A stretch of 64,000 bases of DNA from Talinum fruticosum (lineage: Eukaryota; Streptophyta; Magnoliopsida; Caryophyllales; Talinaceae). The notes under the pieces were generated by a model that worked only from the letters and a program-made list of their open reading frames with translations, made no database searches and had not been told where the DNA came from. How positions within the stretch are numbered: the first letter of the stretch is position 1; each line of letters opens with the position of its first letter. The translations under genes were made by a program, and so were the position numbers. The stretch covers positions 868,001 through 932,000 of the forward strand of contig JAITYX010000032.1 of the NCBI GenBank assembly GCA_021018815.1. The letters are read 5' to 3'. Positions 25,909 to 63,604 of this stretch are shown one piece after another.

Positions 25909-26096
25909 CTTGTGGGCGTTTATATTAGAATCAGAAAGGCAATCAAAAACACCAATTTGAATGATAATAACAAGCTGAATATTGTTATGGGTATGAGTTA
26001 AATTGCAAAAATATTCTAAAAATTGAGTCAATAGAAGAAAGTTAGCAAAATTTGAATGTGAATATTCTCGTGGGAAACCAGGGGAAGAAGGTTTTC

Positions 26097-26104
26097 TTTA
26101 TATA
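26097..26104 (-). promoter_or_regulatory. Putative TATA box of translocator copy A
   Basis: The minus strand reads CCCTATATAAAG about 190 bases upstream of the ATG at 25908. The same CTATATAAA core stands at a similar distance in front of copy B, which supports both. Confidence 0.6.
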
Positions 26105-33100: not shown

Positions 33101-33205
33101 CAACGGGGGAAGAGATCGTTGCTCTGCTTTTGGGATTCCTGGTTTATGGAGAGAGCAAGAGATTAATGAGTGACAGTGAGTTGCTTGACGCAATGTAGCG
33201 AACAT
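30124..33205 (-). CDS. GPT: Glucose-6-phosphate/phosphate translocator, tandem copy B
   Basis: Second plastid GPT antiporter. Exons in transcript order: 33205-32720, 32260-32035, 31888-31666, 31060-30847, 30135-30124, giving 386 residues with an intact frame. The transit peptide begins MFATLRQATHC and is shorter than, and poorly conserved with, that of copy A, while the membrane core is nearly the same (ATWWALNVVFNIYNKKVLNA, SGEPAFSVLVSRFLLGETFP, SNLAFVFRNIFSKKGMNGKS). The 12-base last exon encodes Ala-Lys-Leu-stop against Ala-Lys-Gln-stop in copy A. Exons 2-5 are 226, 223, 214 and 12 bases in both copies, so they arose by tandem duplication. A tRNA-derived SINE sits in intron 3. Both copies look functional, so different expression patterns are plausible (compare GPT1 and GPT2 of Arabidopsis). 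Confidence 0.93.
31225..31372 (-). mobile_element. tRNA-derived SINE in translocator B intron 3
   Basis: The minus strand carries GGTAGCTACTCAACTGGCGA, which resembles a tRNA A-box region, and about 45 bases further GACCGAGGTTCAAGTCC, a good pol III B box. The body continues for about 80 bases. Both boxes in the right spacing, with no tRNA fold completing the acceptor stem, fit a SINE better than a tRNA gene. The 3' end and target-site duplication are not clear. Confidence 0.55.
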
Positions 33206-33378
33206 CTTGTGGGCAACCTTAAATTCAATAGAAAGCCTTCGTTCAAAGGCAAAAACAGAGTTTTGAGTTAAAGATTGAAGCTGAGAAGGTTCAAGAATTG
33301 AACTTGGAGAGGTGAACTTTGCGGGATCTCAAGATGGGGTTTCTTGAAAATGCCCTGAAGAGCATTTAGAAGGAGTGG

Positions 33379-35518: not shown

Positions 35519-36887
35519 CTGCTTGAGTTATATATATTCGATGATCAATTTTTAAATCCTTATTAATCATCAATCCTCGAAATACTAAATTTAATGTTAT
35601 TAAAATAAAATATATAAAAAAATATTTAGACAATCATTTTTTACTACAAGGATTTTGAGTAAGATATCAATTATAATAATCAAATATAAATATTTACCCT
35701 GAAAAATACAACACCATTATTAATAGATAAAATTTGAACAACAAAGTCCAAATTTTGGTCTGAGTTTTTGTTGTGGTGTGCACGGCAGCTCAGGCACATA
35801 CAGTGCAATAATAATTAGTCAGAAAATAAAAATTAAGAAAACTGAAAAACAAAACAAAACAATTACTATCAGTGAAATAGACGTGGGAATTAGCTGATCA
35901 GAGCTGTGAAGTGTGTGCCCTTCAGTTTTGGGGGACCTCTGCAAAGATTTTTCTTAGAAAATTAAATAATTTTTTTTTATGTATGTATCTTTGTATTTTA
36001 TACAGAACCATATATATTACGTATTTATATATTTTAGTCAAGTCAGATTTTTAAAATATCATGGTTTTTTTTCATTTCTAACAATATCAGGTGAATAAAA
36101 ATTGCCCTGAATATCTAATGATCTCTTGCTTCTTATGTTTCATTATTTTCTTTTTTTAAATAATATTTTCCCCCTTTTTTTCATAAAAAAATTTTTTCCT
36201 TTTGAAATCATATTTGTCTGGCTGATTGTAAAGAATGAATATATCCTTAAAAAAATTCAGAAATCAAATAATTATCTATCTGGATTAAAACTTCTATGAT
36301 AAACACAAATAAATTTATGTATTTTGTCAAGATGTAAATGTCGATATATAGATGGAATTTAAGCCCCATCTCTTGGACAATATGTTATTATTATGTATTT
36401 CTGGAAAGTGTGTACTTTTCATTTTTGTTTTTATTTAACCAATAATGTAATTCTTTTAGGATCGTGAGTATTTAAGGTAAAAATCTTTCCAATAAATATA
36501 ATTTTGAGGATCTAAACTTAAATTATTTTATTAACGGTATGAGACTGCTACTTATCTCAATCTTGAGTACATACTTATGTTCTCCTTACCGTGATATTCT
36601 TGTGCTCTCTTTACCGCGGGCGTGTACTTTTAAGCGTACAACATATTTTGTTGATCTGGGCTGTCCGAATCGTATAGTTGGCCTACATTTAAAAAAGCAG
36701 CTGCCCAAATTCAAAATCCAACTCTCATGGGTCATGGGCAGGGCTCCCAAATATGCCCCATTTTCTCCTAAATATGGGTCATGGGTCATGCGCACAGCTT
36801 CCAAGTTCCAACCAAAGAAGGCAAATTAATGTAAGATTGTGAACTCAGACCTGCAAAAGCAGTCAGTCCATTGAACCTCGAATAGCA
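33387..36887. other. AT-rich intergenic region between translocator B and the first mTERF gene
   Basis: No gene was seen. It contains the long (AT)n tract at 35437-35517 and a segment near 34130-34200 with CCCAGGTTCAATTCTGGG, a possible B box of a decayed SINE. The divergent promoters of the translocator (minus) and the mTERF gene (plus) must lie at its two ends. Confidence 0.5.
35437..35517. repeat. Long (AT)n microsatellite, about 40 units
   Basis: It is uninterrupted for about 81 bases, the longest simple repeat in the window. Open frames reading Tyr-Ile-Tyr-Ile through it are artefacts. Confidence 0.98.
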
Positions 36888-38051
36888 ATGTTCAAACTGT
36901 GCTCCAATGGGGGCATTTTCCAAACCCTTCTCTTTCCCCATTTCAAACGTCTGGTTCTCTATTCAACATCTTCTGCAGCTGCAGTGACCCCTCTCACATC
37001 GAGGAATTCATGGTCAACTCGCTGGGTTTCTCAAGGGAGGAAGCAATCACTGCGTCGAGAAAGGTGAGTACTGTAAGGAACAAAATGACAGCAAAACCTG
37101 ATTTAGTTGTTGAATTCTTGAAACAACGTGGTTTAAGCAATGCCCATATTAAAAAGGTTGTACATTCCATGCCAGATGTGCTATTGTTTAGGGTTGATAG
37201 AACCCTAGAGCCAAAATTTAATGCCTTGCAAGAATTTGGTGTGGTGGGTTCTGATTTGGTTCGTGTTATATCGTCGAATCCTTCGATTCTTAGAAGGGGA
37301 TTAAGTACCCGTATTGCTCCTGCCATAAGTTTTTTGAAATCAATTGTGGGCACTCATGAAAATTTGATCACTGTTTTGAGGAGGTCACACTGGTTTATGT
37401 CTTTTGATGTTGATACAATTTTACGGCCCAATCTGGATTTATTGCGGAGCCACGGGCTCTCCGATGAAAGGATCAAGAAAGTTGTAGTCTTTCATGCCGA
37501 TATTTTGGGGCATGATCCTGAAAAACTTGGAAATATATTGCATAGGGTTGAAGAAGTGTTTCGGATTCCTCGTGATACGTGTGCATATGTGGGGGCAACT
37601 GTTTTGCTAGCTTCCTTGAGTAAGAAAACTTTAGATTCTAAGTTTGAGATATTTAAGAGCTATGGTTGGACTGATTTGGATATCATGACCACGGTGAGGA
37701 CACTTCCAAAGTGTTTTCTGTTGTCAGAGGCGGTAATTCGCAGCCGGTTGGATTTTTCTTGAATGAGTTGGGATGTGAACCAGCTTACATAGCTTCCCGT
37801 CCTTATGTGTTGATATATAGCATGGAGGACAGGGTTGTGCCAAGAAATACCATTTTGCAGGTCTTGACAGAGAAAAACTTGTCAGTCCTCCTGGTATCTT
37901 AACAGCTGTATGCATAAGCGAGCGTCGGTTCTTGGAGCTGTATGTGCTTCCCTACAAGGACGTGCTGCCTGAACTATGTGAAGCCTACATTTGTAGGAAA
38001 AATGGTCGTTCTTCTGCTGAAGCAATTTGCCACGTGAGGGGTTCTACGTGA
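36888..38051 (+). CDS. mTERF family protein, single exon, broken by three one-base gaps
   Basis: Mitochondrial transcription termination factor family; plant members act in mitochondria or plastids in transcription, splicing or ribosome function. The start at 36888 (MFKLCSNGGIFQTLLF) gives a targeting-peptide-like N-terminus ending STSSAAAVTP. The body has repeated mTERF helices, e.g. FLKQRGLSNAHIKKVVHSMP, FGVVGSDLVRVISSNPSILR, HGLSDERIKKVVVFHADILG and YGWTDLDIMTTVRTLPKC, and ends near ICRKNGRSSAEAICHVRGST, about 388 residues in all. It resembles the At5g07900/At1g21150 group, which is typically intronless and clustered. The reading frame changes at the C run 36988-36991, the T run 37753-37757 and the A run 37873-37877. 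At each, one extra base restores a family-like protein. I favour assembly error over a pseudogene, because the conserved sequence continues cleanly on both sides with no stop codon in the corrected frame. Confidence 0.82.
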
Positions 38052-40314: not shown

Positions 40315-43300
40315 TTATAGGGATGAGCTGGTTTCAATAACCGTGATTGAATCGTTGTCCCCCTGGCCACTGCAGTTGACTACAACCTTGGTTCCATGAG
40401 GTAAAGTTGGGCATAACTTCTCCAGGAAAGCCAGGGCATGACAGGCTTCGAGGGCCAGGAAGATTCCTTCTAATTTGCACAACCTCTTGTATGCTACAAT
40501 TAAGCACCAACATCGCAGTTTTGTCGTCAGTTTTAGGTCAGGATTAACCTTCCCTCCCCCATCCCCACCAAAAAAAAAAAAAAAACAAAGGATACTGAGT
40601 TTCTGTTGGAGCTTACCGTCTATGGCCTCTGCGTCTGTGATAGTGTAAAATTCTGCGCGCTTGCTGTCCTTCAGATAGCTGAGCTCAGGGCCAACAGCAG
40701 GGCATTCTAGTCTGCAGTTTCATGTCGGATGCAGTCTCAATTACTTTGTATCTGTTCCATAACAATCCAAAGTGGTTCTGGCTTAAGCTTGCCTAATTGA
40801 TAGTCGCTAATTATAATTGCTTGTGACATTGGTAACTATTGATCATAAGCATGGGTACTTGTTGGTAACTGTCATTCGTAACTATTGCTGACGGCTAACA
40901 ATTAATCATAACAGTTGGTAAATGTTAGTAAATACTAATCGTAACTGCTGCAAAATATTGTAATCGTTAATCATAACCATTGGTAACCATTAAAATTTAA
41001 CCAATAACCATTATTTATAGATGTTGAACCGAACATGTCCTTAGTTGACTTGATCAGTATATTAACTCAACCCTGAGAAAGGACAATCTGAACTTATTCT
41101 TAAACAAAGTTAGCTTATCCTAAAATGACTAGACATGATATGCTCTTTGATTTTTAAGAGTAACTTATTACACCACTCAATTGAAAACTAAACTTAACTC
41201 CACCTTCAATTAACTCAACTTGAAGACAGTGCTAGACATTCATTTGACTTAATCCAGTGATGATGCACCCCTAACCTCACTCGTAAGTTCATTAGGTTTA
41301 CACTATCAAGGAGGCTCAGTGAGTAGACTCACTTACCATTAACTCAACTTGAAGACAGTGCTAGACTTTCATTTGACTTAATCCAGTGATGGTACACCTT
41401 CTAACCTTACCCGTAAGTTCATCAAGTTTACACTCTATCGAGTAGGTTTAGGGAGTAAACTCACTTGCCATTGTTAAAAAATAAGTAAATAAAAATTCGG
41501 CCAACTTGAAACAGGTACGAGAATCTCACCCAGTTGCAACAGAATGTGGCTGAAGAATTTGACCTTCATCATCTTGCAACAAATAGCTCATGGTACCATG
41601 ATAAACACCCACATCTCCTTTAGCTAAGGCAGCTGAGTGCCTTCCACTGCATAACCCACAGCCTGCACCTTCAACTCCAACCAACCTCACCCCTTCATCT
41701 TCTCTAAACTCATGAAACAACCCCATTGCATTCGAACCACCCCCAACACAGGCAACCAGGACATCCGGCAACCCACCCCACTTCTCCATGGCCTGCCTCC
41801 TCACCTCTTTCCCTATCACTGATTGGAACTCTCTGACCATCGTCGGGCATGGGTGTGGCCCGATTACCGATGCTGGTGAGTAGTAGCTTGTCCCTGACTC
41901 TAAGCTACCGATCCATTCTCTGATTGCTTCTGAACTTGCATCTTTGAAGCTCCCATCTGTTGGCTTCACCTATAGGTGAAGATCAAGATGTATCAGTTAG
42001 TTGGCATTCATTTTGATGAGCACAAACCAAAAAAGCAGTTAAAACAAAAGAAAAAGATCATGAATATAAATTTCTTAGAAATCATAACAAAGAAAATAAG
42101 ATTTAATAAATAAAAAGTCATGTCCAATTAGCTAGAAAATAAATTTAAAAATAAGGGTATAAACGAAATTTCATCAATTATTTTTTCGGAGTAATTAACT
42201 TTACTAAATATATTATCTAAAAACACTTAACTCAAACAACTAATTCAAACAACTAATATAAATAACTAAAGCGTAACAGTTAATAATTGTTTACCAAATA
42301 AGGCCATAGAATTTATTCAATTTTGCAACTTTAATTTTCGGTATTTTATGTTTTGGATATGAAAATTTAAACATAAAGCTTATTTTTGGAGGTTTGTTTT
42401 GTTTTTGTAATGAAAGTCTGATGGGTGAGGCTTCATGGGGAGGGGGGATCAGGTTAATCCTGAGAAGAAAGTGTGAGTTTACTTGGGCTCCCAACAACTT
42501 CATAAGGCCGACAACGGATGGTCGCCTCTCAATATCCACTTGGCCCATGAAAACTATGCAATGAAGGCCAAGCTTGGCACATGTCGCAGCGGTGGCCAAC
42601 CCATGCTGGCCGGCCCCAGTGGCAGTCACAACGGTGGTGCAGCCCATTCTCTTGGCCATCATGGACTGTGCGAGGGCATTGTTTATGTTGTGACTGCCTC
42701 CGTGGTTGAGATCCTCTCTCTTTAGATATATCTTTGGACCTTGTCCTTCGACATTCTTGTAGTGCTCTGTTAACCTTTTGGCATAGTACAACGGTGTTTC
42801 TCTTCCTAGGTAATCCCTTAGACCCTCTGCTAACTCATTCTGTAACAAAAGATTCAAATTAACAGTTAAGGAATTCATAAGTTTAAGTTGTCGAGATATA
42901 AATTATGAGTAATAATTAGGTTTAAACATGTAAGGAATGAATGACGAATCCAAAGATAAGCTTATACTTGAGAAAGCACAACCGATTATTACTTGAAATT
43001 CGGGGTCGTCAAGGGCCTTGTAGAATTCATCTCCTAGACGTTCCAAGGATGAAATTAAGAGTTCGGACATGTATCTGCCTCCATACAACCCAAACCATCC
43101 AGCTTGGGTTGCAGTAAGAGTACACTTAGTTGAACGTCTAGGAGAACCGAAACCAATAGCCACCTTGGTTGAACCATTACGGTTACGTACTGGCTCGATC
43201 GAATTCGGCACGATAATACTCAAACATGATTTTCTTTCCCTTTTGTCATTGCACAAGCTTTTCCATGGCGGACCATGGAAAGCTGATTGAAGGAGATAGT

Positions 43301-43316
43301 TGCTTCCTGTTGTCAT
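40315..43316 (-). CDS. Tryptophan-synthase-beta-like protein lacking the PLP lysine, copy 1
   Basis: Exons in transcript order: 43316-42993, 42839-42483, 41969-41530, 40711-40617, 40493-40315, giving 464 residues with no internal stop. Residues 1 to about 70 look like a plastid transit peptide; the TrpB domain starts at WFGLYGGRY. In ordinary TrpB a lysine (K87 in Salmonella) binds PLP and condenses indole with serine. Here the motif reads [20 protein letters not shown], so the lysine codon is AAC (Asn). The catalytic Glu (E109) of AETGAGQHG is Ala in [10 protein letters not shown]. The phosphate loop [12 protein letters not shown], the GPHPCPTMVREF region and KRAEFYTITDAEA are kept. The GRGDKD C-terminal motif is changed to GQGDND, and a 5-base deletion relative to copy 2 shifts the last residues to a short tail. 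The COMM region is about 3 residues shorter than in plant TSB1. It cannot be a normal tryptophan synthase; the true role is unknown. Confidence 0.88.
41212..41471. repeat. 129-bp tandem duplication in an intron of TrpB-like copy 1
   Basis: Two units, 41212-41340 and 41341-41471, each contain AACTCAACTTGAAGACAGTG, differ by about 10-15% and end ACTTACCATT or ACTTGCCATT. They lie in the intron between exons 41969-41530 and 40711-40617. Copy 2 lacks them. Just downstream, 40795-41000 holds degenerate GGTAACTATTGATCATAA-like repeats. Confidence 0.9.
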
Positions 43317-43387
43317 TTTTAGAGAGAGAAGGGGGAGAGGAATGAATAGCTTCCTGAGATGAACTTACTGTTCGATGGGTACGTAGG

Positions 43388-43395
43388 ATTTATAA
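43388..43395 (-). promoter_or_regulatory. Putative TATA box of TrpB-like copy 1
   Basis: The minus strand reads GTTATAAATCC about 72 bases upstream of the ATG at 43316. Copy 2 has the same TTATAAAT core 111 bases upstream of its ATG. Confidence 0.5.
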
Positions 43396-43921
43396 CATAA
43401 TGAGGTTCACCAAAAAGACAAGCACCCAAAAAAAGTCACCAAAATCGTTTCCCAAATTCTAAGGTTAATTAATTAAACTAAAGGTTGTTTATATCATAGA
43501 TATCAACATATTCTAAGGTTAAATTAAATTAAAGGCTGACCTTGGCTAATAGATTTGGTTTTGATCAAGTCATTCTTGAATTGGATTGTCTTCATTTAAT
43601 TTCTAGGTCCAAGTATATCGTGTTCTTTTTGTGTGATTTTGATATTGTCCTAACTAGGAGAGTTGTTGTGTGTTAATAGTCATTTTGAATCTTGCTCTTG
43701 GGCTTATGTGAGGAGGGAGGGGAATAGCGTTGCCCATCAGCTTACTAAAAGCTCTAAAGTCGGCCCGGAACAAATTTAGGTTGGGGTTTGCCCACCCCAA
43801 ATTAGCTCTCGTGTAAGCTCTAATTCTACATTGAATTAATATATCAATGGTGGACTTCAAAAATAAAATAAAATAAAAAATAAAAAAGAGTAACTAGGAT
43901 ACATGTGTGTGCGCGGGCGCG

Positions 43922-43960
<39 letters not shown>

Positions 43961-45513
43961 TTAACCTCGTCATGCACTTATAGGGAGTGAAGTAAATCCC
44001 TATATCTATACAAAATTGTCTACGTTCCTACAAATATTACAAATGCTTTAAAAAAGAAAAACACAAATAAATTCAATATTAGAATGGACCAATAAATCAT
44101 GGCAATAATACTACCAAAATTCTAATTTTTAATATTGCATGCCAAAATTTGACAAAGGTTGATAATACTAACGTACACACATATGTTTAATAATGGATAT
44201 AAAAAATTTCAAAACATAAAAGAAAAGACCCTAATTTAATCAATCTTCAGTCCATACCAGTAGACCAAACCGGAAAGAAACGAAGACTGAATAACCAAAA
44301 TTTAAGAATTGAGGATCGGACAGTACTCCATCAATTTGATCCGATCCAGTTCGATCCAATCCATGCCGATTTTCGATCCAAAGACTGAGTAACCAAGATA
44401 AAAGATAATGCTGCATGTAAATTACCAAGTTGCTTTCAATTTTTTATTTACAAGAGTCCAAGCCAATATTAAATAAATTTTAGATTTTTGGATTAAAATA
44501 AATAATATTTTAGGGTATTGGACGTTTATATACCAAATTATAAAGTTGATTGATCATGCACTATAGTTTGGGGTGATTTTCTTTTCTAAACTACGACCTA
44601 CTTAAGAGGTGACAATTTAATTATTTTATGATCTGTCAAGTTGAGAATAATTGATTTAGTGGGTGTAGCACAGTAATTTTCCTTTTCTTAGCTTAACACA
44701 TCGTAAAACAGTCGAATTGATGTCCCTAAATAGTGGTGGTTTAGAAGAAAAAATCACCCCCAAAATACAATGGATGATCAGATCAACTTTATAGTTTAAT
44801 ATATAAACGTTCAATACCCTTAAAGTGCAATTTATTTTAATTCAAGGTATGGTTACACTCTTTAATATATTTTATTGGAATATGCTAATTTAATCTGGCA
44901 CAATTTGACGCAAACTTATATATTTGAATGTTCATGTCCCCACGCCCACACCGTATGCTATGTGTTACCCTATTTTAATTAACGTACGTATTCAGCTATA
45001 ATTTTCACAATATGGACCAAAAAATATGGACCAAATTTAATTTCTCAGTTTCCAATTAGTAAAGTATGTGGGCACCAAATCAACACACCGGTGACTTTTG
45101 ACTGAGTAGCTTTATTGATAAATAAAGATAGTTTAGTTTATAATTTTTTTAAAAAAATTATTATTTGCTGATATATGTGTTTGTTTGATAAATTTTTGTA
45201 CCATTGGATCGGGATAGTAATATTATTTTAAAACAACAAGTCATAATAATATTAATATCACTAGACGTTGATTTAACGACGAGCAAGTGGGATTTCCTTA
45301 CCCTATTCACATGTGTTTTATATGGTACACCTGATGTAAATATTATTTTTCAACATGGGATTTTTTTTTTTAATCAACCAACATGCATTTATTTATGAAA
45401 GATAGAAAAGGTAGATTTTTTTTTTTACATAATATGCATTATTTGTATGAAACTAATATCATTAAAAGAATAATAGTTGAATTAGAATCGGAAAGATTCA
45501 TTGTAACCTTTAG
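43396..45513. other. AT-rich spacer between TrpB-like copy 1 and the LINE
   Basis: No gene was seen. It holds a compound alternating purine-pyrimidine tract at 43900-43958: TG units, then CGCGGGCGCGC, then about 17 AT units. The rest is AT-rich DNA without recognisable structure. Confidence 0.5.
43900..43958. repeat. Compound (TG)n-CG-rich-(AT)n tract
   Basis: Alternating purine-pyrimidine sequence through ATGTGTGTGCGCGGGCGCGC followed by about 17 AT units. Such DNA can adopt non-B structure. Confidence 0.85.
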
Positions 45514-46593
45514 AAAAATAAAAGGGTAAGTTTCTACCTTTGTTCCTTGTTGGCTGCAACTGATTGAAAGATGACTTGCACTTCAAATCCTATAATAAGG
45601 ATTCTATTGTTGACATATATTCTCGTTGTTACTCACTTTACTTATGGTGATGACTATGTCCATAGTTCGTGGATGCTTGAATGGCACGTATATGTGCTTG
45701 TCCCATGGTAAGTATAGCTGCACTTTTTACCTACGAGTTGTCTAGTACTCGTGAAGGCATACCTCTTGATCTATGTTACCCCCTGGATGGGACGGAAGCC
45801 TAAAAGAGGAGTACCTCATAGTTACCACCGAATCAAGGATGACTTTCTCTTTTGTGCTTGAGATTCGTCCTATTGATCTACCTTCTTTCTTTGTTGTTCT
45901 TTCTCCCATTTGTCTCTTGGACCTCGGCTTTACTACTGCAACTTTTTATCTCTTTCTATTAGTTTCACTGAGTGATTTTTCAAAGCATGGCCGATCGATC
46001 TCTCCATTCTACTACGAGTCCATACGGATTAGTGGTTCTTTCATGGTTAATCCGATCTGTTGATGTTTCGCATGGCCTTCTCATGTGTCTTTACGAGTTC
46101 AAAGTCACCTACGGACTGGGTTGCTATCACTCTCGACATGACCCACTCGGACACAGAGCCACTGCAGGAAAATGCTTGGACACCGTTTCGGACTCGGGCT
46201 AAAGGTGGAAGTTCTATAGCGGTTTTATGTGAATGTATTTTGATGATCGGATACAAAATGCTATTTTTCCGAGTTTGACATTCTTTGCTACATTTGTAAC
46301 TTATTTACTTGGTGATTTTAAGGCGAGAGGAAATTTGGTTTTTTCCAAATTTCCCAAGGCTTTCCTTCCGACAAACCCCGAGGGGACTATCCCAAGTTAT
46401 GCAAGTGGTATAGCTCGACCTACGGTTATGCAATGAAAAAGCAGTTTCAGAATCCCCACTACTTTCGGTTGGGATTAGGATTCGCTTATTACAAGGATGT
46501 TGATAGTTTTATTCGAAACTACTAGCCCCTTGTTTGCACTAGGTGCCCTCAAAGGAGGTCGAATAAGTCATTTACATTCGTTAGTGATCTATT

Positions 46594-46971
46594 ATGAAAA
46601 TCATTAGCTGGAATGTACAACGAGTGAAAAGAGAGCGAATCTTGAGCGAGTTAAACTACATTAAGAATCTTCACCAGCCGGACATCTTATTTCTAATTGA
46701 AACTATGGTGAATGCTACAAACGCGGATAGAATTATACGTAAGCTAGGATTCGACCATTATGAAATGATCCCACCGGTTAACCATTCGGGAGGGATATGG
46801 GCATTATGGAACACAAAAAATGTTATTGTACACACATTAGCAAAAGAGGATCGAGCAATACACTTCTATGTTAAAGATAAAGTAGCTAACAAGGAATCTA
46901 TTATCTCGGGGTCTATGGTCCGACCCAAGAGCGTCATAAATCTGAGTTCTGGATTAAACTACCCCTTTTGA
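46594..46971 (+). pseudogene. LINE endonuclease N-terminal fragment
   Basis: An open stretch of 125 codons starting MKIISWNVQRVKRERILSEL. SWNVQ and LFLIETM are the first conserved motifs of the exonuclease-endonuclease-phosphatase fold used by L1 elements to nick target DNA. The frame is lost soon after SGSMVRPKS, so the catalytic His-Asp region is not continuous. Confidence 0.8.
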
Positions 46972-47657
46972 ATATTGTTTTTGATCTCCCGTGGTGTATA
47001 ATTGGGGATTTCAAGGAAATTTCAAGCGCTAATGAGAAAATAGGAGGAAACCGTCTTTCTCCGGATAAAATGGTCCGACTAAATCGTTTTATGAATTCCA
47101 TTAACTGAGCAGTACCTTACCACCGATTGGTAGGATCTTTACTTGGAAAAAATGTATTAGAGGCAATCTCATCTATGAACAGCTAGATAGAGCAATCGCC
47201 GGACACGATTGGCTCAACTCGCTACCCCGAAAGTAAAATTCTCCATGGCCCTTTTTCTTTCTCAAATCATTGTTATATCCTTATGGATACTAAGCCTCAT
47301 GATAACGAGACAAAAATTCCGCAGTTTCAGATTTCAACCGCATTGGGTTTCCTCCCCCAAAGTTGATAAAATTGTTCGGGATAACGAGGAAGAATGAGGT
47401 CGGAGGTACTTCATTGTTTCAAATTACGTGTAAACTTAAACGAATAAAAAGTCAGCTCAAAGATTGGAATAGAAAAACCAATCTAAATTTTAAAAACAAA
47501 ATGGAAGTTAATACTGAAAAATTCAGTATGTAGAAACCAATCTCATTAACCGACCCTTTAATTTCGGACTCAATCGGTGGCTTTGCAGATTAATTAGACA
47601 AAGAGAGAAGTTACTCATGTTTAATCAAAGGTACTGGGGAAAATTTTTCATAAAGAA

Positions 47658-49786
47658 ATGGTTAACGAAGGCGACAGGAACTCCAAGTTTTTTCATATCG
47701 TTGCTACGACTAGAAAACAAAGAAAGACAATTACCCGATTAAAAGATAGCTCAGGAATATGGATTGAAGACATGACATCCATTTGCGACAAATTTGTAAA
47801 TGATTACAAATGCCGATTCACAAGCAATCATAATAGAATAAAGATGCAACCATCATTTATTAATAAAATTAATGATGACCAAAGGAAGGATCTAACAAAA
47901 TTGGTCTTTATTGAAGAAATAAAAATGCGGTCTTCCGGATGGATGCATGTAAAGCCCCAGGTCCGGATGGTTTTGGCCCGGGATTTTTCAGAAATATTGG
48001 GATATCATGAGCCCGGATATTACTTCGATGCTCAATGATTTCCATAAGAAAGGGAAAATCCTTAAAGAAATAAACCACACGTTTATCACACTTATTCCAA
48101 AAGTCGATGACCCAGTCACTAGGAACCATTTCAAACCAATTAGCCTCTCAGTAACACGGTTTATAAGATTATTGCCAAGATTCTTGCCAATAGGCTTAAA
48201 GTTTGTTTAAATGATATCATCTCGCCTCTACAAAGTGCTTTTGTTCCTGGAAGACAAATCCATGACAATATTTTGCTCACCCATGAAATTATGAACAAAT
48301 TCAGACAAAGCAAAAGGGAAAACTGCTTGGGTGGCTCTTAAACTCGATATGGAAAAAGCTTATGATCAGGTTGAATGAGACTTCTTATTCGATTGCCTTA
48401 AAGGTATAGATTTCCCACCAAAGTGGATTAGTTGGATAAAGGAGTGTATATCCTCGGTCTCTTACTCTATCCTCATTAATGACCAACCTCAAGGGTTTTT
48501 CAATCCATCAAGAGGACTAAGACAAGGTGACCCACTCTCACCCTATCTTTTTCTTATCTCGTATGGAAGCCTTATCAGCAAGATTGATCCGTGCGGGAGC
48601 TGTTAGAAAACAAGGAATTGGAATTAAAATTAGTGCAAAGGGGATCTTATTCACCTCTGTTCTTTCGTCGATGATAGTCTTTTATTTTGCAAAGCAAGAA
48701 CACATGCTTTTGCAATCTAAAAAGATAATGGATGAGTTTTGTGCATCCTCGGGGCAACTGATTAATTTTCACAAATTTTCAATGGTGTTCACGCCTAAAG
48801 CGAGACGTAAAGGATAAGGAAATAGCTTCTACCATTTTCCATATTCCCATCATTGAATCTCTAGGAAGATATTTAGGTTGCTCAACTATCTATGGCAAAT
48901 TGAAAATTCCTTTATTCTCACCTCTTATTGAGAAAGCAAATAATAGCCTCGGTTCTTGGAAGGCAAATTGACTGTCAAAGCGGGTAGAACGGTATTAATT
49001 CAATCAAATCTAGAATCACTACCAGCCCATACTATGCAATGCTTTAAGCTCCCAAAACATATTTCCCACTCACTTGATAAAGTGAATAGGAATTTTTCCT
49101 GGAAGAATAATGGTAAAAAAGGTATGCCCATGATTGCTTGGGACCATATCTGCCGGCCAAAAAGCGAAGGTGGTCTAGGCTTACGAAAACCGATGATGTT
49201 AATTATGCCTTCCAATGTAAACTTATATGGAAGCTTTTTAAATAGCCAAATAATTTATGGGTCCGAATATGAAAGCGAAGTATGCAGGCCACGGCGATCT
49301 ATTCTCCGGACCCCAAAGCGAGGAGGACTCTTGGGTTTGGAAATCGCTATCTAAAAGCTACCCGACTTTCTCGTAAAGGGATTCGTTGGAAAATAGGTGA
49401 TGGATCTAACATTATATTCTAGACGGACTCGTGGTGCCACCACAAAAGTCTCCTTCAACTCACGAGCTTTGACCCACAATCTCTTGACCTACAATTAAGG
49501 GTCAATGCTTTCATTAACCAAGAAAATGATACCCCAAAACTTAGATTGGTTTTGCCAAACGAGCATATTGATATCATTACCGGTATCCAACTTTCAATGT
49601 TTACAAAACAGGACGAATCTCGTTGGGGATTAACGGGGAATGGTTTGTTCTCAACAAAAACGGCAACAAAGCTTGCCCGGAATGATCATAGGCATGACTC
49701 TTGGGAGGGTAACTGGATTTGGAACACGGATATACCCCTAAGATTAAGACCTTCCTCTGGCAATTTCTACAGGATGGACTACCTTT
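47658..49786 (+). pseudogene. LINE reverse transcriptase remnant in several frames
   Basis: The pieces, in order, are NEGDRNSKFFHIVATTRKQR, KAPGPDGFGPGFF, INHTFITLIPKVDDPVTRNH, QSAFVPGRQIHDNILLTHEI, LDMEKAYDQVE, SRGLRQGDPLSPYLFLIS, VDDSLLF and PAHTMQCFKLPKHISHSLDK. At least five frame changes and several stops separate them. Some frame changes again fall in short base runs (near 47993 and 48663). Confidence 0.85.
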
Positions 49787-50186
49787 GAAAGAGACCCTCG
49801 CAAAAAGGGTGTTCAATTAGACCCAACATGCAATATGTCCCATCATTATGAGGAATCAAGCGGTCATCTTTTCTTCAATCTGCTCAATAACCTCCCAAGC
49901 ATGGAACATGGCAAAAGCCACCAAGTGGATCCACTCTATTAATTTCGTCAATCCCCAATCTAATGGTATCTCTATCCTTAAAGCGACGCACAACTCCCTT
50001 TCAAAGGACCAGCTTTAACGATTCATCTTCCTCCTATGGAGTATTTGGAAGGAAAGGAACGCGGTTATCTTCAAACATGAGGATTTCCACCATATTAGAG
50101 TCCTCATTAGAACAAAGAAAGCAGCGGTGGAATGGAAATCAAGAAAAGCCTACTCCCCATCGGAGGTCTACTTAAAGGGAAGTACA

Positions 50187-50600
50187 TCAAGAGTTAAACG
50201 GCTTCATCCGGTAAAATGGAATAAGCCAAGCAATGGACATGTTAAACTCAATTTTGATGGTTCCTTAAGAAACAAAAGTGCAGCTATGGGCTTTCTATTG
50301 AGAGACAACTAGGGCAATCTTCTACTTTCGGGAGCAGCCAGGTTAGGGCACACGTCAATTTCGATCGCCAAGCGAGCGCACTTAGATTTGGAATTCAACA
50401 AGCAATCAAAGCGAATATTGGTAACATTGAAATTGAAGGTGACAACTTAATTATCATTGACGAGCATCGGAGGAAGGTACAAAACACCATGGGAATTTGA
50501 TTATATCATCCAAGACATCATACGGATGATGTCTACATTTCAAAGCTGCATCATCAAACATATCTACAGGGAAGCTAATACTGCAGACTAATTGGTTGGT
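50187..50600 (+). pseudogene. LINE RNase H remnant
   Basis: Contains VKWNKPSNGHVKLNFDGSLR, the usual start of the plant LINE RNase H domain with its first catalytic Asp. A TAG follows RDN near 50310, and later motifs are scattered in other frames. Confidence 0.7.
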
Positions 50601-50777
50601 TTACTATGGTTACAATGCAACGTCCCCAACCGTCCGGGATGAGAGCCCCTCCCCTTCCCTTTCATGTATTTTGGCAAATGATAATTTAGGCGGAACCCTT
50701 GTGAGAAGGGCTGTCTAAGTTTTGTTGCTTCCCTTCTTTACCCATTGCCAAAAAAAAAATAAAAGGGCAAGTTTACT

Positions 50778-51211
50778 AAGGTCATGTTCGCCAACAACGT
50801 TTGGAGTAGATTTTAACGTTTTGACCAAGTTAAAATACTAACCAACTAAATATTAGTGTTCGTTAAGATAGTGTTTCGACTATCACTTGCGGTAACTTAT
50901 AGCATTTCAAGTAGTGCTTATGAAAAGTTAAAAATATTAGTTTTTCACATTTAAAAGTAGTGTTTTATATTTTTTGACAAAACATCCCTTCATTAATTTA
51001 TATTTGACAAATTATCTATACCCTTTTATGTCAGTTTACAATAATCAACTAATTCAACCAATAGATTTATTGAACATATTTATTCAATCTGCTAAATTGA
51101 ACAATTATCTGCTAACAACTAAAATCGATAGATATTAGCTACCTAAACAGTATCGATTACGCAAACAACTATCACCTATTTAAACAACTCATTTTACCAA
51201 ACATAACCTAA
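50778..51211. mobile_element. Candidate MITE, about 430 bp, next to the LINE
   Basis: The left end TAAGGTCATGTTCG and the reverse complement of the right end TTAGGTTATGTTTG match at most positions, giving imperfect terminal inverted repeats. The interior is AT-rich and non-coding. It begins three bases after the LINE target-site duplication. A target-site duplication for this element itself could not be separated from the termini. Confidence 0.45.
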
Positions 51212-52653
51212 GTATAATAGAGTGATTTTTGTATGAACAAGTTTTCATTTAAGGCATATAAAATAAGAATATTAATATACTGAAATAAAAACTCAAATAC
51301 AGCAGGTCGTTTTTGACCCAAAACGAGTCATTGTTCAAAACATATGTTCAATTTTCCTTTCATGAAAACAAATTATATGGCACAATTTATTTGAAAAAAG
51401 AAAATTATACCATTGAGCCTGTGAGGAACGGCATTATAATTAGTTTTTTAACAAAATTTTCAGGCATACAATATTTTAAATTGGTGTTATAAAATAATTA
51501 TCTTTGGCTATAAAGTTACGTTATCTTGTAATATATAGGAAGTGCAAGCCCAAATACAAAAGTCTTTTTTGACTACTTATTTATTTATTATATGATATGA
51601 TATCATGACATTACCTCATAATATTATTTGGGACTTAGGGGAGGGAGGAGGATAGGATCAGTAGCCACTACATCATTGATCCCCTCGACATATTTATTTA
51701 CATATTTTGTCTCATTATATAGGTTAGACATAAAAATTAGTTAACTTATCTATTGATGTTTTCTCAATTGATATGATGAAGAGAAGATCCAACAAGTTTT
51801 TACTCTAAATTTCTGTCTACTTCCAAGGCACTAGTGAGTACACTTATGAGTACAATACGAGCGTGGCAAAGATCTCTGTGTATATCAAAAACTTATTCGA
51901 TCTGTTGCACACGAAGTGATTATTAAAATCTGTGGAAGAAGCAATTTTAATCCTATATAGAGGACTCAGAGTAATACTCTCACAGAACTCTTCTTCTAAA
52001 ACATCCCCAACATCACACATACACTATAGGGTAGGGACTAGGAGGGATACAAGGTTGCTGCTCTTGAGTTGTTGATGACTTCATTAGTACCCTTAGAACT
52101 TGTCTCTTGGCTAAGCGAGGATCCATTATAACAATGCATTCAATGGGCCCCTCAATCTCATCCTACAGATATGTCCTTGATAATTTCCTTACAAAGGTCT
52201 TTTATTATTGGACCCATAAAATTCTTTTCGTACTTTACATAATCCAACGATATCATTCTATTTTACAAGAACTCCTAAAGCGAATATGCATTTCTTCATC
52301 TCATAGGGTACACTATTTTGTGTTTCTCAATCTGAATTGTAGGTGTGTAATTATAAAATCTTCCAACTAGATGATAATAGATCTTTATTCAGCCAAAAAA
52401 ATGATAACAGTTATTTACAAGATCAATTGTTATGCGATTATTGTACTATCCACTGAAAACTTGTTTCTCTAGTTTATGAACTGAAGCCAATACATGCTAC
52501 CCCTACCCTAATCTTTTCTCCCCTCAAATATATATAGTAACTTTCATACATTTGATTATGTTATACTTAGTTTCAACCTAGTGCATTGCACATCGAGCAA
52601 GATGCAAATTTATGCAGCCTTACACTTGACAAGCATAGGAGCTCTTTCCGGGG
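51212..52653. other. Spacer between the candidate MITE and TrpB-like copy 2
   Basis: No gene was seen. The last part (about 52460-52650) is the 3' flank and probable 3' UTR of copy 2 and matches the flank of copy 1 near 40010-40310 (shared CATACATTTGAT and CTTGACAAGCATAG-like stretches). Confidence 0.5.
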
Positions 52654-54886
52654 TTAAAGAGCTTGCAAATCCATTACGAGAAAAATTTGTGGCAAGACTA
52701 GGCAGGGGGAGTATTGCTCTTCTCCGATCAGATCAGAGATACTTGATTGTTTCTGCTCATTACTTGAATGAGCTGGTTTAAATTCCTGAACTCTGGTTGC
52801 ATCCTTATCTCCCCGGCCACTGCAGTTGACTACAACCCTGGTTCCATGCGGTAAAGTTGGGCACAACTTCTCCAGGAAGGCCAGGGCATGGGAGGCTTCG
52901 AGGGATGGGAAAATCCCTTCTAATCTGCATAGCCTCTTGTACGCTGCAATTAAGCACCAATATTGCAATTTGGTGTCAGTTTTGCGTCAGGATTTTTCCT
53001 CCTTACTCAGTCACCCTTCCCCTTCCCACCCCCTCTTCCAGGAAAAAAAGAGACCGAGCTTGTGTTTTCGAGCTTACCGTCTATGGCCTCTTCATCTGTG
53101 ACAGTGTGAAATTCTGCTCGTCTACTATCCTTCAGGTAGCTGAGTTGGGGTCCAACCCCGGGACACTCTAATCTGTAGGTCCATGTCAATTGCGATTTAG
53201 TTAATGACAATCTAATGCGAATCTTACTTTAGCAGTATATATATAATATATACATGTTTTCTTGTAGTTTCTACTGGTTCCTTGGCACGAGGTCATAGCC
53301 TCACGGCCCAGTGACCTTTCGTTTGTGGGGTTGGGGAGAAGCGGTTAGTCTGGACATGGTTCGTAGTCCAAACAAACCAGGGTTGCTTATTTGTCTAAGT
53401 CGAGCATGTAATAGGATTAGAACTCACCCAGCTGCAATAGAATGTGACTGAAGAATTTGACCTTCATCATCTTGCAACAAATAGCTCATGGTCCCATGAT
53501 AAACACCCACATCTCCTTTAGCTAAGGTAGCTGAGTGTCTTCCACTCCATAACCCACATCCACCAGCTTCGACTCCAATCATTCTCACCCCTTCATCTCC
53601 TCTAAACTCATGAAACAACCCCATTGCATTCGAACCGCCCCCAACACAGGCAACCAGGACATCCGGCAACCCACCCCATTTCTCCATTGCCTGCCTCCTC
53701 ACCTCTTTCCCTATCACTGATTGGAACTCCTGGACCATCATCGGGCACGGGTGGGGCCCGATTACCGATGCCGGTGAGTAATAGCTGGTCTCTAAGCTAC
53801 CCACCCATTCTCTTATTGCTTCTGAACTTGCATCTTTGAAGCTCCCTTCTGTTGGCTTCACCTATAAATGAAGATGTATTATTATGATCATATTGATCAG
53901 CACAAATTTAAAAATGAAACAAGTTAAAACGAAAGATCCCTCTTTTGTCAAATGAGCATTTTTTAGAACTTCTAGTTTGTTTTTCGAGTAAAATCTTGAT
54001 TGGTGGGACTCGAGAAAAAAAAAAAGAAAGAAGATGTGGTTAATCATTAATTAACAAACAAAAACGCATGAGGATGTTTTATTCCCAAAAAAACACGAGG
54101 ATGAAAAGGAAATGTGTTTACTTGGGCCCCCAGCAACTTGATGAGGCCCACAGCAGATGGCCGTCTCTCAATATCTTCTTGGCCCATGAAGACTATGCAC
54201 TGAAGTCCGAGCTTGGCACATGTAGCCGCGGTGGCCAATCCATGTTGGCCGGCCCCGGTGGCGGTCACAACGGTGGTGCAGCCCATCCGTTTGGCCAGCA
54301 TTGACTGTGCTAGTGCATTGTTTATATTGTGACCACCTCCGTGGTTGAGATCCTCCCTCTTCAGATATATGTGTGGTCCTCGTCCATTTATACCCTTATA
54401 GTATTCCGTTAGCCTTTCTGCATAGTATAGAGGTGTTTCCCTCCCTACGTAATCGGTTAGCCCCTCTGCCAACTCATACTGCATCCAAAAGACAACGTTC
54501 GAATTATATACATGTCAAGGAACGAATTCACTCGAAAAATTGACCTTATATGTTTGAAAGAACAAATGAAATTGAGGGTCGTCAAGGGCGTTGTAGAATT
54601 CATCTTCGAGATGGTTCAAGCACGAGATCAAGAGCTCAGGGACGTATCTACCTCCATATTTCCCAAACCTTTCGGTTCTGGTTCGGGTTGTGGTAGTAAG
54701 AGTAGGATTGGTGGAACGCGTAGGAGAGACAAAACCAGTCGCGACTGAACCATTAGCTACCACCTTGGTTGAACTTGCCATAACAGTTCTGTAACATAGT
54801 TTTCTTCTCTGTCTGTCATCTGACACATTCTGCCGTGATGGACCAACGAAAGCTGATTGGATAAGGTGGTTGCATCCTGTTTTCAT
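52654..54886 (-). CDS. Tryptophan-synthase-beta-like protein lacking the PLP lysine, copy 2
   Basis: Exons in transcript order: 54886-54545, 54478-54122, 53861-53428, 53172-53078, 52943-52654, giving 505 residues with no internal stop. It has a plastid-type N-terminus, then [15 protein letters not shown]. The PLP-lysine motif reads [18 protein letters not shown], with Asn encoded by AAT (AAC in copy 1). The Glu of AETGAGQHG is again Ala ([10 protein letters not shown]). [37 protein letters not shown] and CSGRGDKD are kept. The first splice donor of copy 1 (CAAGTAATA) has no counterpart; the first in-phase GT lies 8 codons further (AAG/gtcaat at 54545), adding HLFFQTYK or so before YELAEGL. 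The C-terminus runs about 40 residues past the usual TrpB end and includes Ser/Gln-rich sequence. Exons 2 and 4 have the same length as in copy 1. Function is unknown; it cannot use ordinary PLP chemistry. Confidence 0.86.
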
Positions 54887-54916: not shown

Positions 54917-54996
54917 GATAGATGGGTTTTGCTCACTCTAGGAAGTAAGTTTTGCTTGAGATGAGAATGAGTTATGTTTGGCACTCCACCGGTAAA

Positions 54997-55004
54997 ATTT
55001 ATAA
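54997..55004 (-). promoter_or_regulatory. Putative TATA box of TrpB-like copy 2
   Basis: The minus strand reads CCTTATAAATTTT 111 bases upstream of the ATG. The TTATAAAT core matches the box of copy 1. Confidence 0.5.
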
Positions 55005-56222
55005 GGCAGAGGATGAGCGAAAGACAAGCACCGAAATTATTTTTAATTCTCAAGTTGTTAGGGTTGATAATCAGTACGGGTGAGCATGGATCGGTTAAGT
55101 TCATTTAATGAAATTTTTTAATATCGAAATTGGATAAATCAGTTGTTCACAGATTCATTATAAGTCTTTTCAGTTTAATTCATAATTAACAACTGAAAAT
55201 TTTCTCTTTCTTTTCAGATTAATATATTTGTAAAGTTTCCTATTATTTTTTTTATTGTCAACGGGAATGGGTGTTATATTAATTGATTGTTCATAAACTT
55301 ACACATATTTTTGTTGCCAAATTATATATAAGATTTGGCACTTCTTTCACCCATATTCTTTCCAAAAGATCGATAGCTAAAGGTGAGCAATTACATGAAC
55401 AAACGAATTACAACCCCTAAACGAAATAAATTATATTTTTAGTCAAAAGGTGAAGGGTTGTTTTAGTCACAAAGACAACCAATTACATTTATTCTGTTAC
55501 GAATAAATTATATCTTTTTCCTTTTTGCAATGTGGTGCTTGTTTCTGCTTGGTTGTATAAAAGTGCACGGTCCATTAATATCGATTTAATTAATTTTAAA
55601 CCGGTTAGATTAATCAAAAAATCGGTAAAAATTATCAATTTTAGTTTTATTTTATTTTTTTACTTGACAAATGAAGATTTGAATTTGGAACTAAATGACT
55701 TAATTTAAAATTTTCTATGAAATTATTTATTTTCATAAGATAAATTTATTGGACCAAATATAAATTGATTCGAATCGAAAATTATCTAACTTAAGTCAAA
55801 CCTTCATCAGCCCAAAATATGACTTGATTAGAGCTCAACCCAAACCATACAATCTGTTTGTTATATCGATTCTGATGGGCAATTTACTTATTGAATAAAG
55901 ACTCTATTGATATAAAACTTGACGCGTAAAAAAATTCAAAAAATCATAGTACAAAACTTATATGTATCTAAATTATTGAAAGTGTCCTAGTACAAGTTTG
56001 ATTTGAAAGATGTGTATGACATGTGATGGATAATGTGGCTGTTTATATCAACGCAAAACCCCTTTTACCAAAACATCTGCCGGCCATTTATAAAATTCAC
56101 GTTGGATGTTTACGTCACGCACCATACAACGTTTTTCATGTGGCTTTCTACGCCAAAACTTTCAATTTCGTGGGACATCATATCATTTTTTCCCTCTCTC
56201 TCTGTCTATATATATAGTAATG

Positions 56223-57880: not shown

Positions 57881-59067
57881 TTCATTTTCTTGATGCTTTT
57901 ACCAAGCGAGGAACTAGGTGGAAGAGAGAATCGTTGGCGTGTACGTGATTTGAGGGGTGTTTTCCCTTTGGGAGAATGAAAATTAACTTATTTTGGTAGC
58001 ATAACATTAATGTAAGAGTGAGGGTTGACTTATGGATTTGGGAATTTGATAATGGAATTTGGGAAATTAGAGATAGAATTTTGTAAATTTTGGAGTTTGT
58101 CGTATTATGGGGAATTTGGGATTTTGATAGATAGTTGTATAAATTTAGCAAATCAAATGAAGGTAAAAAAATTATGAATAATTTTTCACTCCAGAAAAGG
58201 AGTTACCTTACCTAACCATTGGAGTCTAAACTCTGCATCCCAAAATTTATTGTTGAATGACGAAAATGACAAAGATGCCGCTTAACCACAATCTAATATT
58301 AACTTAATTCCGATCCCCCTCAATACAAATTTTGGATCCCCTATTGCACATGATGAATACAATCTATACATTTCCTCACCAAAAGTTCGGCAAGTTATTA
58401 TTAATTTTTTTATAGATAGGCAAGTGATTATTAGCAAAGCATTAACAAAATTATCCGAATCCGAAAACCTAACAAAATTCGGGTTCAAACGGGTTCGGTC
58501 TGGATTAAAATTTTAAATCATCGCTTGTAATTTCAACCCCATTCGGTTTGAGTTCTAGATCCGCCACTACTCGCCAGAATTAAGTTCAACAAGTGGTGGG
58601 TTTACTAAGCGAGTTTCTTTTTCATCTGATTGAAAAAGGCGAGACCTGTGTAAAATGTTAGTTTTGAATGGAGCTTGTGCAGAAGAATTTTATAACAAGG
58701 AGAGATCAAAGAAACCATCTTGAATTAGGGTATTTTGATGTGGCAAAAGGGTACTTTGAAACTAAGTTACTGAGAATAAATCTAAGTTCAGAAACTTGAT
58801 ATGAGAAGCATTTTAGCATCGTTATATATAGGCCTTCTCCTCTGGGCAAGTTTTTTCTAGGTGGGTCATAGGCGGGTTAGGGTTGGCTGGCCCCTGATCT
58901 CGCCCAGCCCATTTACCATTTTTTGGTTGACCCGCCCCGACCCTTTATAGTAATGGGCCCAGCTCTAATTCTCATTGATTAGTGTGTGAAACTTGTGTTG
59001 TTGGATTGTTGGATTTTGGCTAATATTTATGCAATAGTAAACTGAAAAGAGCTTGTCGCCCTTCCTT

Positions 59068-62011: not shown

Positions 62012-63604
62012 ATGTCTGTCTTAAATCCGAGCGTGAACATTCGAGGTTGCATCGTTATCTCCAATCCCGGTTTCTCACTGCTACACCTGGACTTGCCTAC
62101 TCAAAGATTTTGCAAGCCGCACATCATTCCGACATCAACAGTCCTGCCGCCATGTGTTGACCAGAAAAGAGCAGGTTTTAGGCTTAGATTTCAGTATTCA
62201 GTGGCTGAAAGATGCTTTGCTTCGAACGCCCCAGCTGTGTGTGCATCTAAGACATACTCTGGTGAGATGATGAAGAAAGAAGCAAGTGCATCATCTTTGT
62301 ACAGTCGTCCTAGTTTACTGGAGATGAAGAAGCAGAGGCTGGAGAATCGTGCCCGTGTTTATGAGTTTCTGAGGGGGATTGGCATTGCCCCTGATGAGCT
62401 TGATGGACTGGAATTACCAGTGACAGTTGATGTCATGAAGGAACGTGTGGATTTCCTCCATAAATTGGGGCTTACAATTGAAGATATCAATAATTATCCC
62501 CTCGTTCTTGGATGCAGTGTAAAGAAGAACATGGTCCCAGTACTTGATTACCTTGGAAAATTGGGTGTTAGAAAATCTAGCATCACAGAATTCTTAAGAC
62601 GATACCCTCAAGTCCTGCATGCTAGTGTTGTTGTGGATCTTCAGCCTGTGGTTAAGTATCTGCAAGGGATGGATATCAAGCCTGCTAATATTCCTCGTGT
62701 TTTGGAGAGATATCCGGAGGTACTAGGATTCAAGCTTGAAGGAACCATGAGCACATCGGTGGCTTATTTAGTTGGTGTTGGAGTCGGAAGAAGAGAAATT
62801 GGTGGTGTTTTAACCAGATACCCTGAGATTTTGGGTATGAGAGTGGGCCGTATCATCAAGCCTTTTGTGGAGTACCTTGAATGCCTGGGCATTCCAAAAT
62901 TAGCTGTTGCTAGATTGATTGAAAAAAGGCCTCACATTCTTGGATTTGGATTGGAAGAGAGAGTGGAGCCAAATGTTAGGACCCTTTTGGAGTTTAATGT
63001 TAGGGAAAAGTCACTTGCCTCAGTGATTGCTCAATATCCTGAGATTATTGGCATCGACCTGAAGCCCAAGCTTTTCAAACAGAAGAGCTTGTTCAGTTCT
63101 GTAATTGATCTCGGCTCTGAGGACTTTGGGCGAATAATAGAGAGGATGCCTCAGGCTGTAAGCCTTAACAAAACAGCAATAGTAAAGCATTTGGATTTTC
63201 TGAAGGAATGTGGTTTCTCTTTACCACAGAGGACAAAAATGGTTGTTGGGTACCCACAATTGCTTGCTTTGAATTTAGATATCATGAAACTGAACTTTGA
63301 TTACTTCCAATCAGAAATGGCCAGGCCTTTGGACGATTTGGTTGATTTCCCTGCTTTCTTCACTTATGGGTTGGAATCCACAATAAAGCCAAGGCATCAG
63401 ATGGTTGCAAAGAAAGGGCTGAAATGTTCCCTTTCTTGGCTTTTAAATTGTTCAGATGAGAAGTTTGAACAAAGGATGGATTATGAATCTATTGACATGG
63501 AGGAGATTGAGCCTGAGCCTGCATTTGATATGAATTCGCTAATGGGTTCCAGAACTGACGATTCAGATTCTGAGGCTGATGATTATGATGATGAAGATCT
63601 ATAG
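62012..63604 (+). CDS. MTERF4: mTERF4-type organellar gene expression factor (BSM/RUGOSA2 orthologue)
   Basis: Plastid (and possibly mitochondrial) RNA-associated factor needed for group II intron splicing and ribosome function, essential in early development in Arabidopsis (BELAYA SMERT/RUGOSA2). Single coding exon of 530 residues. An in-frame TAA directly precedes the ATG, which fixes the start. Residues 1 to about 90 form a basic/Ser-rich targeting peptide; the conserved region starts SLYSRPSLLEMKKQR and VYEFLRGIGIAPDELDGLEL. About ten mTERF helices follow, e.g. VDFLHKLGLTIEDINNYPLV, YLGKLGVRKSSITEFLRRYP, ERYPEVLGFKLEGTMSTSVA, LTRYPEILGMRV and IAQYPEIIGIDLKPKL. The family-specific end (CSLSWLLNCSDEKFEQRM, then an acidic Asp/Glu tail) is complete. 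Unlike the mTERF at 36.9 kb, the frame is intact. A splice acceptor just before the ATG hints at a 5' UTR intron. Confidence 0.95.
   Translation: MSVLNPSVNIRGCIVISNPGFSLLHLDLPTQRFCKPHIIPTSTVLPPCVDQKRAGFRLRFQYSVAERCFASNAPAVCASKTYSGEMMKKEASASSLYSRPSLLEMKKQRLENRARVYEFLRGIGIAPDELDGLELPVTVDVMKERVDFLHKLGLTIEDINNYPLVLGCSVKKNMVPVLDYLGKLGVRKSSITEFLRRYPQVLHASVVVDLQPVVKYLQGMDIKPANIPRVLERYPEVLGFKLEGTMSTSVAYLVGVGVGRREIGGVLTRYPEILGMRVGRIIKPFVEYLECLGIPKLAVARLIEKRPHILGFGLEERVEPNVRTLLEFNVREKSLASVIAQYPEIIGIDLKPKLFKQKSLFSSVIDLGSEDFGRIIERMPQAVSLNKTAIVKHLDFLKECGFSLPQRTKMVVGYPQLLALNLDIMKLNFDYFQSEMARPLDDLVDFPAFFTYGLESTIKPRHQMVAKKGLKCSLSWLLNCSDEKFEQRMDYESIDMEEIEPEPAFDMNSLMGSRTDDSDSEADDYDDEDL

Follow-up and report, generated by a model that had tools for sequence, protein, structure and literature searches.

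A duplicated pair of TSB-like genes in Talinum fruticosum with asparagine in place of the PLP-anchoring lysine

Two genes for proteins related to the tryptophan synthase beta subunit (TrpB; TSB in plants) lie on the reverse strand of a 64,000-nucleotide stretch of the Talinum fruticosum genome (the window; assembly GCA_021018815.1, contig JAITYX010000032.1, positions 868,001 to 932,000 of the forward strand). Both were modeled from open frames, splice sites and homology, and were assigned to the TSB-like group from the gene model, the NCBIfam family TIGR00263 and a phylogenetic tree. Gene A (40315..43316) encodes 464 residues in five exons (42993-43316, 42483-42839, 41530-41969, 40617-40711 and 40315-40493), and gene B (52654..54886) encodes 505 residues, also in five exons (54545-54886, 54122-54478, 53428-53861, 53078-53172 and 52654-52943). 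The introns are GT-AG and the frames are open over all 464 and 505 codons. Against TIGR00263, whose trpB cut-off is 392 bits, the two proteins score 476 and 488 bits, and residues 73-463 of B, the copy for which this comparison was run, align along TrpB of solved structures. A and B share 77% identity in an alignment of 469 positions. In the model, exon 1 of B extends 21 nt beyond the donor position of A, which gives an in-frame insert of seven residues, and the C-terminus is longer in B. Each protein has an N-terminal extension that, by eye, resembles a plastid transit peptide. An initial annotation, made from the sequence alone, had described the five exons, the open frames and the TrpB fold with the same outer coordinates. 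The copies of its "tandem pair" are not adjacent, being separated by about 9.3 kb that hold a reverse-transcriptase-like piece. The broken frames in this spacer (46588-50500, forward strand) are read as remnants of an element like a long interspersed nuclear element (LINE); three pieces were scanned, one of which gave an RVT_1 match of 27.4 bits against a Pfam cut-off of 29.6 bits, and the other two no match.

In both proteins asparagine occupies the position of the lysine that anchors pyridoxal 5'-phosphate (PLP) in TrpB (K87, Salmonella numbering): Asn159 in A (codon AAC, 42687..42689, reverse strand, as for all codons given here) and Asn165 in B (AAT, 54326..54328). The motif around it therefore reads HNIN instead of HKIN (CAC AAC ATA AAC at 42681-42692 in A, CAC AAT ATA AAC at 54320-54331 in B), as the initial annotation had seen. 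Two further substitutions shared by the copies had been missed. The E109 position is alanine (Ala181 in A, codon GCC, 42621..42623; Ala187 in B, GCC, 54260..54262), in the context TATGAGQHG, and the D305 position is glutamate (Glu376 in A, GAA, 40705..40707; Glu380 in B, GAG, 53166..53168), in the context GLECP. R141, the partner of D305, is still arginine in A and B. Apart from K87, the PLP contacts that were checked, which we take to be H86, Q114, the GGGSN loop, E350 and S377 in Salmonella numbering, are intact in both copies. A further HNIN-like match, at 58000-58011, lies outside the tblastn matches of the A and B proteins and was set aside as a chance occurrence.

Substitutions at E109 and D305 are known from TSB-like, a catalytically dead TSB paralogue published in June 2025 from A. 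squarrosa, L. galeobdolon, Arabidopsis, Populus and N. benthamiana (Florean et al. 2025; PMC12727527). As set out in the main text of that paper, E190 of AsTSB (E109 in Salmonella) has become Ala, with Ser or Pro in its place in Solanaceae, and D386 (D305) has become Glu, which is termed universal in TSB-like and, according to a proposal made there, locks the active conformation at all times. The expectation for the R141 position (AsTSB position 222) is Arg or Lys. The combination of Ala, Glu and Arg at these three sites thus marks A and B as TSB-like, and both of the residues expected of a catalytic TSB, K87 and E109, are replaced, by Asn and Ala. The initial annotation knew of no plant TrpB paralogue with such a change, a statement that fails for the family.

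Three protein searches yielded 162 distinct relatives. Of the roughly 8000 proteins scored in each of the first two, the 120 best were listed, so that near relatives were sampled, and the third, made with 43 residues around HNIN, gave 75 matches among 85 candidates and is biased towards proteins with Asn. The 157 relatives without E109 (one through a gap there) were taken as the TSB-like set; the other five, one of them bacterial, keep it. In this set, chosen as lacking E109, that position reads Ala in 145 proteins, Ser in nine and Pro in two, with one gap, the D305 position Glu in 140, Gln in 12, Lys in one and Asp in one, with three gaps, and the R141 position Arg in 82, Lys in 74 and Glu in one. 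The twelve proteins with Gln at D305 are P0050, P0052, P0062, P0069, P0072, P0077, P0078, P0082, P0094, P0111, P0123 and P0129; ten of them, from Eucalyptus, Corymbia, Rhodamnia, Syzygium, Juglans and Carya, read GLQYPG, and the gene models of P0123 and P0129 look broken at that site.

A tree of 38 rows places A and B together (support 100/100), inside a TSB-like clade that is separated from four canonical rows with 100/100. Within it, the pair belongs to a nine-row group (100/100) together with sequences from Amaranthaceae (Beta, Spinacia, Chenopodium, Bienertia and two from Amaranthus) and from Saponaria, in which its exact sister is weakly supported (83/37). This position points to a plant of the Amaranthaceae/Caryophyllaceae alliance. 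A quicker 67-row tree likewise pairs A with B and recovers the group and its place inside TSB-like; both trees were built without TSB type II and without the characterised proteins of PMC12727527. From signature and clade membership we consider it nearly certain that A and B belong to TSB-like, and the idea of an undescribed family was set aside, TSB-like being already published. Eight proteins from Magnolia, Aristolochia, Cinnamomum, Macadamia and Stephania (P0014, P0032, P0048, P0103, P0104, P0115, P0030 and P0037) also carry Ala and Glu at the two sites; they group with TSB-like in the 67-row tree and, except for P0032, also in the 38-row tree (100/100). The position of Macadamia differs between the two trees.

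The homologue search and tree that the initial annotation had proposed for proteins with Asn at K87 thus placed the pair in a known clade, and they brought out three further TSB-likes without the lysine, which is present in 154 of the 157 relatives examined. These are P0151 of Lithospermum erythrorhizon (Asn), P0159 of Aristolochia fimbriata (Asn) and P0154 of Bauhinia variegata (Gln), all from the Asn-favoring 43-residue search. Parsimony on the 38-row tree, with all lysine-less cases included, requires five changes, four of them placed in TSB-like. A side case is P0157 of Protea cynaroides, which has Asn at the PLP lysine although it is a TSB of canonical type and retains E109 and D305. Loss of tryptophan synthesis has been tied to E109A, and the reverse exchange A190E restores a little of it in AsTSB-like (PMC12727527), which would imply that AsTSB-like retains a working PLP lysine. 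Because 154 of 157 relatives keep the lysine and loss of synthesis is tied to E109A, TSB-like did not begin with the loss of the lysine. Searches limited to open-licence PMC papers found no description of a lysine loss in plant TSB-like; the main text of PMC12727527 does not contain the word "asparagine" and uses "lysine" once, for another position. What is new is therefore a TSB-like without the PLP lysine but with the other checked PLP contacts, in a family that was already known.

The Asn codons of the two copies differ silently (AAC and AAT) and are flanked by other silent differences, so that the asparagine most likely arose before the duplication and was retained afterwards. The silent difference also makes decay or a read error an unlikely source of it: although a single assembly was used, an error at the lysine codon would have had to strike two copies with different Asn codons and different flanking silent sites, and is exceedingly improbable.

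Selection on the pair was measured as the ratio of non-synonymous to synonymous substitution rates (dN/dS), pairwise between A and B (Nei-Gojobori type, kappa 2), the data on the relatives being proteins. The overall value, a check also suggested in the initial annotation, is 0.29 (bootstrap 0.21-0.41), not near 1, with 0.19 (0.13-0.27) for the core and 0.66 (0.37-1.21) for the N-terminal part. Exon 2, which carries the asparagine, gives 0.126 (0.06-0.23), and segments of 41, 61 and 95 codons centred on it give 0.17, 0.16 and 0.13. By core quarter the values are 0.245, 0.087, 0.239 and 0.171, with the asparagine near the end of the first. Exon 3 (41530-41969 and 53428-53861) is unusually alike in the two copies, with 9 of 59 four-fold sites differing against 24 of 51 in exon 2 (P = 0.0004) and 44 of 111 in the other exons. 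This likeness may reflect gene conversion, but the exon does not cover the Asn codon, and without it the core value is 0.16 (0.11-0.24). Neutral evolution was simulated from the present-day sequences, without indels, at 0.10, 0.15 and 0.20 changes per site per lineage. At each rate, 0 of 1000 runs left both copies free of stops; on average 10.7 to 18.5 stops would be expected across A and B together, and none is observed. The pair is under purifying selection, and neither a broken frame nor a loss of such selection, either of which would mark a pseudogene, was found in A or B. A slow decay, in which another TSB-like copy assumed the function, constraint on the pair eased, the lysine was lost and the frames have simply yet to break, would account for the seven-residue insert at the exon boundary of B and for the N-terminal dN/dS of 0.66. 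The low core and exon 2 values, accumulated over a time most likely after the loss of the lysine, and the missing stops speak against it, and the N-terminal part resembles transit peptides, a class of sequence that usually evolves fast. Slow decay thus appears unlikely. The reading as pseudoenzymes rather than simple decay, given in the initial annotation, fits the published TSB-like family.

Upstream of each gene, on the same strand, a putative promoter was delimited by weak alignment to that of the other copy, with the TTATAAATC box for A (43338..43430) and the TTATAAATT box for B (54940..55036). Their local alignment score is 42, against a best of 39 and a mean of 26 in 200 shuffles, which is only suggestive of a real likeness. 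Elsewhere in the window, two neighboring gene pieces similar to phosphate translocators (TPT; 25360-26097 and 32702-33328, both on the reverse strand) form an apparent tandem duplication, and two mTERF-family genes lie at 36875-37762 and 62012-63604 on the forward strand.

We consider it probable that A and B are tandem-duplicated TSB-like activators of the alpha subunit (TSA) that form no internal aldimine and are either free of PLP or hold it non-covalently. Gene structure, residues, clade and purifying selection were observed in the pair itself, and binding and activation of TSA are known from other TSB-likes, which co-purify with TSA and activate it so that indole is released and tryptophan is not made (PMC12727527); we infer that the pair does the same, and without a Schiff base. 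By this analogy A and B would bind plastid TSA in place of TSB and keep it in the active closed state, yielding free indole for defence or scent rather than tryptophan, a role that fits the allosteric partner of an alpha-type subunit envisaged in the initial annotation. The exchange of the PLP-anchoring lysine for Asn would be a second step in the lineage of the pair, most likely taken before the duplication and then kept. It is proposed that D305E and R141 keep the beta fold permanently closed, so that the internal aldimine would no longer be needed, and the protein would work either with no PLP at all or with a non-covalently bound PLP or PLP-serine adduct that does not turn over. According to PMC9512447, the R141-D305 salt bridge helps to keep the beta subunit closed, and the K87T exchange in Salmonella moves external aldimines strongly towards full closure of both subunits. 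Given this closure, and a Glu at D305 that is already proposed to keep TSB-like closed, a TSB-like could plausibly lose K87 and still activate TSA. Activation of TSA by at least one of the copies seems likely to us, and full independence from PLP rather doubtful. A bolder version is only tentative: a PLP-independent, permanently closed allosteric TSA switch, in which the loss of the lysine was an adaptive second step in four scattered TSB-like lineages (the pair, Lithospermum, Bauhinia and Aristolochia), locking the activating state or freeing the switch from PLP and serine levels.

Several observations pull away from an activating role for the pair. Both copies depart from other TSB-likes at two conserved residues of the COMM segment (L to S, G to A) and at the residue that follows R141 (Q to R). 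These changes might modify signalling instead of maintaining it. In addition, A carries changes of its own (P to S, P to L, R379Q and K382N) and may be weaker than B. Among 155 highly conserved columns, A departs at nine and B at six, of which the insert may account for one; the 157 TSB-like relatives have a median of one, an upper quartile of three and a maximum of 16. Such changes fit either a shifted function or partial relaxation, and count in favor of slow decay. The branch leading to the pair is long (0.50 in the 38-row tree), as would be expected under slow decay or a changed function, and constraint was possibly relaxed before the duplication. Selection is not strongest at the asparagine, whose core quarter has a dN/dS of 0.245 (0.12-0.46) against 0.087 in the next. 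The three other lysine-less TSB-likes have also lost S377 (to N, N and L), and the Bauhinia model lacks its middle stretch and that of Aristolochia has an unrelated C-terminus, so that in these two cases the gene may be broken or the model faulty. The K87T structures contain bound PLP ligands (PMC9512447), and the published indole and tryptophan assays of TSB-like contained 0.2 mM PLP and 1 mM L-serine (PMC12727527), so that PLP-free activation is something we infer. The COMM-segment changes and the long branch are also what would be expected if the pocket, without covalent PLP, now bound indole or another small molecule, or if the proteins sequestered TSA as dominant inhibitors without activating it. 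The pair nevertheless retains Glu at D305 and Arg at R141, which are proposed to hold the activating state, no positive pointer to another ligand was found, and nothing specific speaks for the readings as indole-binding protein or dominant regulator; such a change of function is quite improbable.

For a TSA-activating pair without internal aldimine, the interest lies in the cofactor. With PLP present in the published assays, A and B offer a test made by nature of whether the TSB-like switch needs it, since they lack the Schiff-base lysine but have kept the other checked parts of the site under selection. Should they activate TSA, beta-to-alpha signalling would run without an internal aldimine, and a cofactor-free indole switch would be possible; should they not, they would mark how a pseudoenzyme leaves its function.

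Compared with known systems, the pair shares with canonical plant TSB (TrpB1 type) the TIGR00263 match and the checked PLP contacts except K87, and differs from it in the absence of K87, E109 and D305 and in its position outside the canonical group (100/100, four canonical rows). The Salmonella K87T enzyme presumably has E109 and D305 intact. This laboratory mutant (Rhee et al. 1997, cited in PMC9512447) replaces the same lysine by a small polar residue, but it was engineered and studied with external aldimines, whereas the pair is natural and also lacks E109. With TSB-like (PMC12727527) the pair has in common E109A, D305E, the length of TrpB and a clade that includes signature-bearing relatives, and it is set apart by asparagine at the PLP lysine, where 154 of the 157 relatives have lysine.

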